NCBI RefSeq assembly: GCF_014648275.1
Contig: NZ_BMQU01000026.1
Location: 1 to 47,978 of the forward strand
Direction of reading: 5' to 3'
Length of the DNA: 47,978 nucleotides
Source of the DNA: Pseudomonas laurentiana
GTDB taxonomy: Bacteria > Pseudomonadota > Gammaproteobacteria > Pseudomonadales > Pseudomonadaceae
Positions 38,669-46,789 of the stretch are shown one piece after another. Below the pieces are notes generated by a model. That model searched no databases. It saw nothing but the letters and a program-made list of their open reading frames with translations, and was not told where the DNA came from. The translations under genes and the position numbers were made by a program. Position 1 is the stretch's first letter. Each line of letters begins with the position of its first letter.

Positions 38669-39136
38669 TCAGTCATCCAGACCTCGGCCGCTCAGCAAGC
38701 GGCCGATCAAGTCCATGGGGAAGCCTCGGTAAACCAGAAAACGGGTTTGCTGCGCACGACTGCGAGGATCACATGGCAATTGCCCTGCAAACTTGCGCTG
38801 CCATACCTCAAGCAATTGCGCCTGCCAGTCTACCCCCGACTCACGCAGAGCCTGGTCGATATCCGAACGTTGTAAACCGCGCACGCCCAGTTCCTCACGT
38901 ATGCGCGCAGGGCCATAGCCGGAGCGAGAGCGATAACTGATGAAGCTTTCAAGATAGCGGGCCTCACTGAGCAAACCCTCATCCGTCAAACGGTCGAGTT
39001 CCTGTTCGATCATCTCGGGAGAAGCACCGCGCTGACGCAACTTGCGCGTCAGCTCGACACGACCGTGCTCGCGGCGCGCGAGCAGGTCCATGGCTGTCCG
39101 CCTTACGGCGACGGGGGTATCGAGTACGACGGACAT
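38669..39136 (-). CDS. recX: Recombination regulatory protein RecX
   Basis: RecX caps RecA filaments and inhibits RecA. The 155-residue protein has three-helix repeats with [39 protein letters not shown] and [16 protein letters not shown]. Its start is eight bases after the recA stop, so it lies in the recA operon. It is intact even though recA is broken, so its usual partner may be missing. Confidence 0.95.
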
Positions 39137-39144
39137 GGGCAGGA

Positions 39145-40124
39145 TCAGAAGTCAGCGTCAGCGTCGACCAGATCGTCTTCAGGAGCAGCATCGGCGATCG
39201 CAGCCTTGCCAGCAGCCTCAACGGCACCCGGGTTCAAAAGCTTGTCGCGGATCTGCTTCTCGAGAGTGGCAGCGATCTCCGGATTGTCCTGGAGGAACTT
39301 GGCCGAGTTGGCCTTACCTTGACCAATCTTGCTGCCCTGATAGCTATACCAGGCACCCGATTTTTCCAGCAGACCGTGCTGTACACCCAGGTCGATGATT
39401 TCGCCGTTGAGGTAGATGCCCTTTCCGTAAAGGATCTGGAACTCGGCCTGACGGAATGGTGGAGCCACTTTGTTCTTGACGATCTTGACGCGGGTTTCGC
39501 TACCAACCACTTCGTCGCCTTCCTTCACCGCGCCGGTACGGCGGATATCCAGGCGAACCGAACCAGGCAGTTGGCGTTCTTGATGTTGCCAGTAATTTTA
39601 CGCAACGCCTGGGACATCAGGCGAGCCTGCAGGCCCACGTGCATGTCACCCATTTCACCTTCAATTTCAGCCTTTGGTACCAATGCAGCAACGGAGTCGA
39701 CGATGATCACGTCAACCGCATTGGAACGCACCAGCATGTCGGTGATTTCCAGTGCTTGCTCACCTGTATCTGGCTGCGAGACCAGCAGGTCGTCGACATT
39801 GACGCCCAGCTTGCCGGCGTACTCTGGGTCCAGTGCGTGTTCGGCATCGACGAAGGCGCAGGTAGCCCCCATTTTCTGGGCCTGAGCGATCACCGACAGG
39901 GTCAGTGTGGTTTTACCGGACGACTCAGGGCCGTAGATCTCGACGATACGGCCTTTTGGCAGACCGCCAATGCCCAGGGCAATGTCCAGCCCCAGCGAGC
40001 CAGTAGAAATGGCCGGGATCGCCTGGCGCTCATGGTCACCCATGCGCATGACCGCGCCTTTACCGAATTGACGTTCGATTTGACCCAGGGCCGCAGCCAA
40101 GGCACGCTTCTTGTTGTCGTCCAT
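39145..40124 (-). pseudogene. recA: recA with a frame-shifting internal deletion
   Basis: RecA normally forms the filament for recombination, repair and LexA self-cleavage. The start [20 protein letters not shown] (ATG at 40124, after GAGG) and the Walker [10 protein letters not shown] are intact to NANCLV, about residue 188. Homologs continue with about 30 residues containing INQIR and the L2 DNA-binding loop. Here the sequence jumps to the codons for [10 protein letters not shown] in another frame (junction about 39560-39563), consistent with a loss of about 91 bases. A stop is met 11 codons later at 39525. The C-terminal 138 residues follow out of frame. A protein lacking L2 would not bind DNA properly. 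Confidence 0.88.
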
Positions 40125-40164: not shown

Positions 40165-40184
40165 ACCTGTATAAGTAGCCAGTA
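40165..40184 (-). promoter_or_regulatory. LexA (SOS) box of recA
   Basis: On the minus strand the core reads CTGGCTACTTATACAG, with CTG and CAG half-sites spaced as in the LexA consensus (one mismatch, CTGG for CTGT). It lies 43 bases upstream of the recA start, within the cinA-recA gap, as expected for LexA control. Confidence 0.8.
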
Positions 40185-43100: not shown

Positions 43101-44375
43101 TTAGGTACAGCTCACTCGCCAAAGCTGATCAAGCCGTGTCGTGTAACTCCTACTCATCATCTCTCGACGCATCCCCCAGTCAGGATCCACCGGCACGCTA
43201 GCAGATCGAAGCGTTCCCCTGCCCCATCGTTCGTTGATCTGATCAAGCACCATCATCACCCGACTCGCTTCAGCTGGCTGAGCCGCTGCGAACAGGTCGC
43301 CTGTATATTGGCCTCGCTGGCTGAGGTTCATTAGCAGGACTTCAGCCTTGCTGTAATTGAAGCCAGGACGGAACACGCGCTCAAGCGCATCGACCGCAGC
43401 CTTCGTCAGCAACCGTACATCATCAGTAGGGTACGGCAACTCGACGAGCACCCCGTTGGCGTACTTGGCTTCCTCAGGGTTGAACATGCCAGTTCGAATG
43501 CTCACCCTGATCTTCTTGCATACAGAGCCTTGCGCCCGCAGCTTTTCCGAGGCGCGCATCATGTAGGTGGCCACCGCCTCTTTTATTGGCGCCAATGCCT
43601 GCAGGCGCTTGCCGAACATCCGGCTGCAGCAGATCTCCTGCTTTGGCGGATCCGGTTCATCGAGCTCCAGGCAAGGGGTACCGGCCAGCTCGCGAGCGGT
43701 TTTCTCGACCACCACACTGAACTTTTTGCGCAGCATCCACGGATCAGCCTTGGCCAGATCCATAGCGGTCTTGATGCCCATGCCTTCAAAGTGAGTGCTC
43801 AAACGACGGCCAACACCCCACACCTCCGAAACCGCCGTGTTCCTCAGCACCCAATCGCGCTTAAAGGGATCGCAGATGTTAACCACACCACCGGTCTGAG
43901 CCTGGAGGCGCTTGGCCGTATGGTTCGCCAGCTTGGCCAGGGTCTTGGTACCAGCAATACCGACGCCGACCGGAATGCCAGTGCAACGCAGCACCTGGCT
44001 GCGAATGCGTCGGCCGAGCTGGTCCAGGTCAGCAATACCGGTCAGATCGGCAAACGCTTCATCAATGCTGTAGACCTCGACCGCTGGAACCATGGATTCG
44101 ATCAGGGTCATGACCCGCTCGCTCATGTCACCGTACAGGGCATAGTTGGACGAGAACGCCACGATGCCATGCTGCTTGAGCTTGTGCTTGATCTGAAAAT
44201 ACGGCTCCCCCATCTTCACAAAGGGCTTCGCGTCGTAGCTGCGCGCAATGACACAGCCGTCGTTATTGCTCAGTACGACGATCGGCACCTTGGCCAAGTC
44301 CGGTCGAAACACCCTCTCGCACGATGCGTAGAACGAGTTGCAATCGATCAATGCAAACACGGGCGCTTTAGACAT
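43101..44375 (-). CDS. umuC: UmuC/RulB-like Y-family DNA polymerase
   Basis: This 424-residue protein is the polymerase subunit of an SOS translesion system. It starts FALIDCNSFYASCERVFRPD with the catalytic Asp of LIDCNSF. The second acidic pair is in YSIDEAFADLTG, and the helix-hairpin-helix region is SEVWGVGRRLSTHFEGMGIK. The C-terminal domain after about residue 240 carries a UmuC-type DUF4113 region (RWGRGTLRSASV). Its start overlaps umuD by eight bases. Confidence 0.95.
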   Translation of the reverse strand: MSKAPVFALIDCNSFYASCERVFRPDLAKVPIVVLSNNDGCVIARSYDAKPFVKMGEPYFQIKHKLKQHGIVAFSSNYALYGDMSERVMTLIESMVPAVEVYSIDEAFADLTGIADLDQLGRRIRSQVLRCTGIPVGVGIAGTKTLAKLANHTAKRLQAQTGGVVNICDPFKRDWVLRNTAVSEVWGVGRRLSTHFEGMGIKTAMDLAKADPWMLRKKFSVVVEKTARELAGTPCLELDEPDPPKQEICCSRMFGKRLQALAPIKEAVATYMMRASEKLRAQGSVCKKIRVSIRTGMFNPEEAKYANGVLVELPYPTDDVRLLTKAAVDALERVFRPGFNYSKAEVLLMNLSQRGQYTGDLFAAAQPAEASRVMMVLDQINERWGRGTLRSASVPVDPDWGMRREMMSRSYTTRLDQLWRVSCT

Positions 44376-44793
44376 GGCTGCGCACGCTGCCGGTGATCAC
44401 GCCCCAAATCGACAGCTCGTCCCCTTCTAGAACGTAGCGCGGCGGGTACTTGGGGTTTTCGGACAGCAGGATCACGTCCTTGCCTCGAATGCACAGCCGC
44501 TTGCACACCGGGTCATTGTTCAGCAACGCAACAACAATATGCCCGTGCGCAGGCTCAAGCGAGCGGTCGACCACCGCAAGGTCTCCATCAAAGATCCCAG
44601 CGCCCTGCATGCTCTCACCTGTGATTGATACAAGGTACACATGAGGTGCCCGGATGTTGAGCACTTCATCCAGGGAGATGTGCGCCTCGATGTGATCAGC
44701 CGCTGGCGAGGGGAACCCAGCTGGCACTTGGAACAGGCACAGGGGCAGCTTCAGACCGCCCTCGGCGATTGGGCCTATGATGGAATAGCTCAT
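44368..44793 (-). CDS. umuD: UmuD-like LexA-family self-cleaving protein
   Basis: UmuD is cleaved to UmuD' with help from RecA filaments and activates UmuC. The 141-residue protein from the ATG at 44793 has the cleavage site Ala-Gly in QVPAGFPSPAADH. It also has the catalytic Ser in GESMQGAGI and Lys in VCKRLCI. A LexA box lies 20 bases upstream. With recA broken, neither induction nor cleavage would be expected. Confidence 0.94.
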   Translation of the reverse strand: MSYSIIGPIAEGGLKLPLCLFQVPAGFPSPAADHIEAHISLDEVLNIRAPHVYLVSITGESMQGAGIFDGDLAVVDRSLEPAHGHIVVALLNNDPVCKRLCIRGKDVILLSENPKYPPRYVLEGDELSIWGVITGSVRSHV

Positions 44794-44812
44794 GACGCAC
44801 GACTCCAAAAAA

Positions 44813-44832
44813 TACTGTACGAATATACAGTT
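44813..44832. promoter_or_regulatory. LexA (SOS) box of umuDC, shared with the SRAP gene
   Basis: TACTGTACGAATATACAGTT contains the perfect CTGT-N8-ACAG core. It lies 20 bases from the umuD start on one side and about 60 bases from the SRAP gene on the other, so it could control both divergent genes. Confidence 0.9.
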
Positions 44833-45891: not shown

Positions 45892-45963
45892 ATGACCATT
45901 AAACTTATCCTCATCTTGGCAATCGAAATCATCAGATTGATCCAGATGATGGTCATTGGTTAA
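45892..45963 (+). CDS. 23-residue hydrophobic peptide, possible type I toxin
   Basis: A 23-codon gene (ATG at 45892, TAA at 45961-45963) has GGAG six bases before the start. The peptide is almost all Ile/Leu/Met/Val with a few charged residues (MTIKLILILAIE at the start). This resembles small membrane toxins such as TisB or Ibs in size and composition. Its stop overlaps the dam stop on the other strand, so the transcripts could be antisense. It is not recognised and is inferred only from signals. Confidence 0.45.
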   Translation: MTIKLILILAIEIIRLIQMMVIG

Positions 45964-46754
45964 AACAGGCTGCCAAGTGCAGACGGCGTCCAGTTCATGA
46001 TGACTAGCTCACCCGTTACCTCAGCTTTGCCTTGCCGCTGGTTGGTCGTCGTGTACCTAATATCCACAGTCTCGAAATGGAAGCCGTCGAAAACACGCCG
46101 GATGTCCGGGTGGTCGTTGATGCTGACCATCACCTTGCCCTTACAGCACCGCATGAACGCGGCCATGCGCTCGTAATTTTCAAAGGGGAAATCGAGGCCA
46201 TACCCAGCGGTCTGCCAGTACGGCGGGTCCATGTAATGGAACGTGTGTGCCCGGTCGTAGCGCTCGGCGCATTCCAACCAGGACAGGTTCTCGACGTAGG
46301 TGCCGGCGAGGCGCTGCCAAGCGGCTGAGAGGTTTTCCTCAATGCGCAGCAGGTTGATGGCCGGGCCGGTGGTTGCGGTACCAAAGGTCTGCCCAGTGAC
46401 CTTGCCACCGAACGCATGCTGCTGCAGATAGAAGAACCGGGCGGCACGCTGGATGTCCGTCAGCGTCTCGGGCCGGGTCATCTTCTGCCACTCGAAAATT
46501 TGGCGCGAGCTTAGCGCCCATTTGAACTGGCGGACGAATTCCTCCAGGTGGTTCTGCACCACCCGATAGAGCGTAACCAGGTCACCATTGAGATCGTTGA
46601 GCACCTCCACCGGCGCGGGCTGCGGACGCATAAAGAACAGCGCAGCACCACCGGCGAAGACCTCGACGTAGCATTCATGAGGGGGAAAGAGAGGGATCAA
46701 GCGGTCGGCCAGACGGCGTTTGCCGCCCATCCAGGGAATGATTGGAGTCGTCAT
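45960..46754 (-). CDS. dam: Phage DNA adenine methylase (D12 class N6-methyltransferase)
   Basis: This 264-residue enzyme methylates adenine N6. It has PWMGGKRRLADRLIPLFP (motif I region with SAM binding), EVFAGGAALFF and the catalytic DPPY in YMDPPYWQTAG. Phage Dam proteins often protect phage DNA or affect packaging. A LexA-type box lies about 15 bases upstream of its start, unusual for this family. It overlaps the 23-residue peptide gene at its 3' end. Confidence 0.9.
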   Translation of the reverse strand: MTTPIIPWMGGKRRLADRLIPLFPPHECYVEVFAGGAALFFMRPQPAPVEVLNDLNGDLVTLYRVVQNHLEEFVRQFKWALSSRQIFEWQKMTRPETLTDIQRAARFFYLQQHAFGGKVTGQTFGTATTGPAINLLRIEENLSAAWQRLAGTYVENLSWLECAERYDRAHTFHYMDPPYWQTAGYGLDFPFENYERMAAFMRCCKGKVMVSINDHPDIRRVFDGFHFETVDIRYTTTNQRQGKAEVTGELVIMNWTPSALGSLF

Positions 46755-46769: not shown

Positions 46770-46789
46770 TACTGTATGGATAAACAGGT
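46770..46789 (-). promoter_or_regulatory. LexA-type (SOS) box upstream of dam
   Basis: The core CTGTATGGATAAACAG (46772-46787) fits CTGT-N8-ACAG. It lies about 15 bases from the dam start, so the methylase would be turned on by DNA damage. Confidence 0.7.

Follow-up and report, generated by a model that had tools for sequence, protein, structure and literature searches.

As assembled, this draft Pseudomonas genome (G000) is recA-null: exactly 91 bases are absent from its recA gene and the reading frame is destroyed. We consider an error of draft assembly or consensus to be the leading explanation of the gap (at somewhat better than even odds), narrowly ahead of a genuine double mutant of recent origin, because a second blunt, frame-shifting deletion is present in trpB of the same draft. 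With such an error the organism would carry an ordinary recA, of which assembly or consensus would have omitted a short piece and left a blunt junction, the same kind of omission seeming to have occurred in trpB, and the reads would be expected to reveal the full gene. The chief alternative, a real and recent loss-of-function deletion of recA in the sequenced culture, is in our view possible at somewhat less than even odds.

The recA locus and the search for a substitute gene

The window analysed is the entire contig C26 (47,978 bases) of G000, with recA on the minus strand and its ATG starting at 40124. Alignment to P. defluvii WCHP16 (L034) and four other Pseudomonas sets the gap at 91 bases, and blastn against P. 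defluvii yields two blocks that abut without overlap at window positions 39561 and 39562 and are separated by 91 bases in P. defluvii, which sharpens the original prediction of a frame-shifting internal deletion of about this size. A deletion common to relatives is ruled out, all aligned relatives having the stretch. The N-terminal frame is normal through V188; 11 foreign residues follow before it meets a stop at 39525-39527, which gives 199 aa counted from the ATG. The C-terminal frame restarts at 39561 with the ten residues foreseen in that prediction and continues down to the stop at 39145-39147. Thirty residues are lost together with the frame, also as predicted and true of the sequence as assembled, and they include what we take to be INQIR and the L2 region. 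The L2 region of RecA is DNA-binding. The junction is blunt (0 bp microhomology by alignment), and hidden microhomology of a base or so is possible since the ancestral codons are unknown. The remainder of recA, recX, cinA and the upstream LexA-box-like site were found intact as described beforehand, the site being recognised by the LexA-box consensus pattern CTG-N10-CAG. The features of the locus are:

39562..40124, minus strand: recA 5' piece in its normal frame, comprising codons 1-187 and two bases of codon 188, by alignment
39561..39562, minus strand: recA junction, 91 bases missing that are present in five of five aligned relatives, by alignment and blastn
39525..39561, minus strand: out-of-frame end of the recA N-terminal frame, to the stop
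39145..39561, minus strand: recA 3' piece in its normal C-terminal frame, which opens with [10 protein letters not shown] and closes at the stop
40167..40182, minus strand: LexA-box-like site (CTG-N10-CAG) upstream of recA, by pattern match
38669..39136, minus strand: recX, intact, 155 aa
40228..40710, minus strand: CinA C-terminal-domain gene (the cinA of the prediction), intact, 160-aa single-domain protein

Set against L034, the 187 codons of the 5' piece carry 29 silent changes and none that alters an amino acid. For the opening 100 codons of the 3' piece the corresponding counts are 21 and zero, and the variable tail differs by a single V/I replacement. This near absence of amino-acid change indicates that full selection acted on the gene until very recently, or still does. 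A recA otherwise almost unchanged favours an error in the draft, and it would also fit a real deletion if the event were very recent.

Nor did a second recA, for which the original prediction had left room, come to light elsewhere in the genome. The assembly comprises 5,209,936 bases (5.21 Mb) in 223 contigs, with an estimated completeness of 99.99% and contamination of 0.37%. A RecA profile search of it returned the two recA pieces, no second RecA-family gene above the cut-off, and one match below the family cut-off on contig C8, whose 503-aa frame is RadA-like by inspection. Within this 99.99% complete draft the genome is without another functional RecA gene, a statement that an unassembled replicon would escape. 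The missing stretch itself had no match beyond chance elsewhere in G000 (74 of its 91 bases searched). We regard it as very improbable that the truncated products are still partly functional, or that frameshifting or another recombinase compensates; 187 normal codons are indeed kept in the N-terminal frame, but 30 core residues including the L2 region are gone in either frame and the only other profile match is the RadA-like one below the cut-off.

Integrity of recA across Pseudomonas

An uninterrupted recA occurs at 78 of 80 named Pseudomonas loci, the two exceptions being that of P. brassicae MAFF 212427 with a 1-nt frameshift and one with an inserted element, and for this reason the gap is not chance variation. 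By conservation the missing 91 bases fall in the top 5% of 91-nt recA windows (72 of 79 Pseudomonas loci aligned over the needed length), and an assembler could confuse related sequences in so conserved a stretch, which favours an error. Strong selection on recA, which weighs against a real deletion, is reflected in a RecA profile search over 399 genomes of the genus, G000 included: among the matches listed, as read from the table, the best match reached E 2.5e-139 or better in 391 genomes, was weaker in three (G000, G097 and G154) and was lacking in five (G244, G261, G339, G361 and G387), four of which are under 90% complete. A strong match may also come from a genome whose host recA has been split by an element carrying a copy of its own.

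Irregular recA genes were observed in a few other genomes. That of P. brassicae MAFF 212427 (L049, about 1905-2983) has a 1-nt frameshift at residue 77, representing either a lesion or a base-calling error; recA of G097 (L114) is split at residue 77 as in that locus, and the two may be one genome. Neither the RecA profile (among the matches listed) nor a recA DNA search matched G361, a draft rated 100% complete, whose lack of recA may reflect a gap in the assembly. On another contig of the P. defluvii assembly (L144, G420:C111:100000-106000) there is a second, divergent recA-like gene; judged by inspection of frames, it is broken into two frames and adjoins chemotaxis-type genes.

An interruption near codon 64 is present in recA of G191 (L120, L116), G160 (L121, L117) and Pseudomonas sp. 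GD03858 (L079, 1700-3000). In G191 and G160 another recA, complete and divergent (78-79% identity to RecA of P. defluvii), is found about 110 bases past the 5' stub, and the 3' part of the host gene lies about 29 kb and about 72 kb away, respectively; L079 covers the right end of the interruption only, where its junction is identical to that of G191, and these two may be one genome. In idea the G191 and G160 elements are similar to the recA mobile element of Vibrio cholerae S24, in the available text an island with its own recA that inserts at bp 494 (PMC4405046); they resemble it in carrying a recA and differ from it in their position near codon 64. The gap studied here is like the V. cholerae S24 case in that the host recA is interrupted, but unlike that island, as there described, it is a deletion with no replacement gene found (PMC4405046), and the window holds no element with its own recA inside the host gene. 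That the gap is the relic of an element once inserted in recA, as in other Pseudomonas, has in our estimation an almost negligible chance. Elements with a replacement recA do enter recA in this genus, but those observed here enter near codon 64 rather than codon 188, and here bases were lost, none were added and no replacement recA was found.

A second deletion in trpB and the origin of the gaps

A 20-kb sample of contig C1 contains a blunt 26-base frame-shifting deletion in trpB (L154 about 2627, C1 about 42627), a gene named from a reading of its protein. Its junction has 0 bp microhomology by alignment, and the strain is a predicted tryptophan auxotroph if the deletion is real. The occurrence of such a lesion in a second core gene of the same assembly argues for an error, and a real deletion in recA would need this second blunt deletion to be a coincidence.

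In a 142-kb alignment with P. defluvii, recA and trpB have the only in-gene frame-breaking deletions among gaps of at least 8 bases; the alignment also holds an insertion cluster in one variable C1 gene, including a 13-base insertion beside a 1-base deletion, and a 2-base insertion was seen at C3 109277. When P. defluvii gene models (G420) were matched in G000, 6 of 121 were flagged, and recA and trpB were accepted as broken while the other four were judged, as a matter of judgement only, to be wrong models; the reverse comparison flagged 4 of 119, all for stops, and none was accepted. For the related genome G015, 275 gene models found a match within C1, C26 or 120 kb of C3; nine were flagged, the mid-gene splits accepted being recA and trpB. 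The remaining seven, classed as groups and not singly, were three splits in the first 49 residues, which we took for start differences, and four stops inside matches of 71-82% identity. In the opposite direction 5 of 285 were flagged (two splits near the N terminus and three stops), and one of these splits (94% identity) is possibly a true break in G015.

A codon-usage frame tracker was applied to 994 kb with 856 predicted genes (C26, C1, 360 kb of C2, 120 kb of C3 and 20 kb each of C4 and C8) and recovered the recA and trpB breaks at their exact positions. Fifty-five events were called in these genes: 38 at distances above 200 nt from joined ends, and 17 near gene ends, which were set aside. 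Those with upstream tails of at most 24 nt (27 events) were presumed as a class to be ordinary gene overlaps, two of the 27 (C1 334988 and 357102) having no start codon listed near the stop. Nine doubtful places were rejected as broken genes, all nine pairs belonging to different Pfam families, that is, to neighbouring genes. In a control of 600 kb of G015 (5000 N read as A) the tracker found 15 such events in 524 genes, three with tails of more than 20 nt.

About 0.99 Mb of G000 thereby yielded one accepted unexplained lesion besides recA, namely trpB, and no accepted 1-nt frameshift, the commoner form of natural damage. Both accepted breaks are of one odd kind, clean, blunt, mid-size and in core genes, and their being the sole accepted mid-gene breaks speaks for an error. 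An assembly riddled with breaks is rejected on the same count, and two accepted gaps in about 1 Mb, which do not make an error-ridden assembly, weigh to that extent against an error. Natural deletions without end joining usually rely on short repeats. A Ku gene, present in 18 of 24 other genomes of the genus in that search, was not found in G000, which removes the obvious natural path to blunt joins and with it Ku end joining as the origin of the recA join. Two junctions with 0 bp microhomology by alignment in a genome with no Ku found favour an error and count against a real deletion.

Other observations pull away from an error. The assembly is otherwise good (99.99% complete, 0.37% contamination, contigs up to 426 kb), and no other contig was found with the intact stretch (74 of the 91 missing bases searched). 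Were the draft built from short reads, its consensus would not readily have invented a blunt junction. Confusion among conserved k-mers is a weak idea as a common cause, because the trpB gap lies outside any unusually conserved sequence, 32% of 26-nt windows scoring as high in a comparison of two genomes only. In favour of a real deletion, the recA junction lies within a 48-kb contig of a nearly complete assembly with no intact second copy found, LexA-box-like sites are in place, and a LexA-type gene is present on C4 as an open 208-aa frame; a second LexA-type match lies on C3.

A real deletion also has a precedent. As far as the available text of that report goes, Mycobacterium bovis BCG Russia is a natural recA mutant with a 1-nt insertion, which was sequenced after homologous recombination had failed and is backed by the absence of the protein (PMC2483709). 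The two cases are alike in a frame-shifting recA lesion in an otherwise normal strain, and unlike in that BCG Russia has a single-base insertion and lacks the protein whereas here a 91-base gap is known from the draft assembly alone (PMC2483709). A real deletion would be a further example of natural recA mutants, already published for BCG Russia. In the available part of a RecA survey, 20 of 2237 species were without any RecA trace, all with very small genomes, and vestiges remained in others (PMC6452273). Like some of those genomes G000, as assembled, has a recA vestige in the form of a pseudogene, but unlike the RecA-less species it is 5.2 Mb in size and otherwise nearly complete (PMC6452273). 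Our literature search found no published report of recA loss in Pseudomonas draft genomes.

Predicted consequences for SOS and prophage genes

The end of the contig is occupied by a phage-like region (prophage or tailocin) with UmuD-like, UmuC-like, SRAP, methylase, Rz-like and endolysin genes, which includes:

43101..44375, minus strand: UmuC-like polymerase
44368..44808, minus strand: UmuD-like S24 peptidase
44815..44830, no strand assigned: LexA-box-like site between the umuD-like and SRAP genes, by pattern match
46772..46787, no strand assigned: LexA-box-like site upstream of a phage-type DNA methylase (45960-46754), by pattern match

The bare CTG-N10-CAG pattern has 32 occurrences in the window where 20.6 would be expected, and weight is therefore given only to those sites that precede a gene and have a CTGTA-type core. 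Since LexA-box-like sites precede them, the umuD-like/SRAP pair and the methylase should need RecA for induction. The site at 46772-46787 is directly before the gene for a phage-type DNA adenine methylase, which suggests that prophage methylation is SOS-controlled.

If the recA deletion is real, the loss of core residues means that neither product should form an active filament, judging from the known roles of RecA and LexA, and the cell would lose RecA filaments, strand exchange and SOS induction altogether. LexA would then remain uncleaved and SOS genes repressed, those of the adjacent phage-like region behind LexA-box-like sites would stay silent, and the trpB lesion would make the strain auxotrophic for tryptophan as well. 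The original prediction of a recA-null natural isolate with silent SOS genes in the nearby prophage can be retained in part: it holds for the assembled sequence, and LexA-box-like sites do precede the prophage genes, but for the isolate itself the trpB deletion makes an error slightly the more likely cause, and the silence hangs on the lesion being real. The fuller proposal is of a Pseudomonas close to P. defluvii in which blunt deletions, arising without Ku, have very recently put recA and trpB out of action and left its SOS and prophage genes locked off; it is tentative and to us somewhat less likely than not.

If the gap is an error, as we favour, core-gene lesions in a 99.99% complete draft can be false, and finding one further lesion in the assembly gives an inexpensive warning. 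If it is real, a Pseudomonas of full genome size exists without recA; natural experiments of this sort are rare, and this one would show how cells live with neither an SOS response nor homologous recombination, and would also inform on prophages without inducibility, the lysogen being shielded from induction. Should the double loss prove true, the strain would provide a natural test of a 5-Mb bacterium living without homologous recombination.
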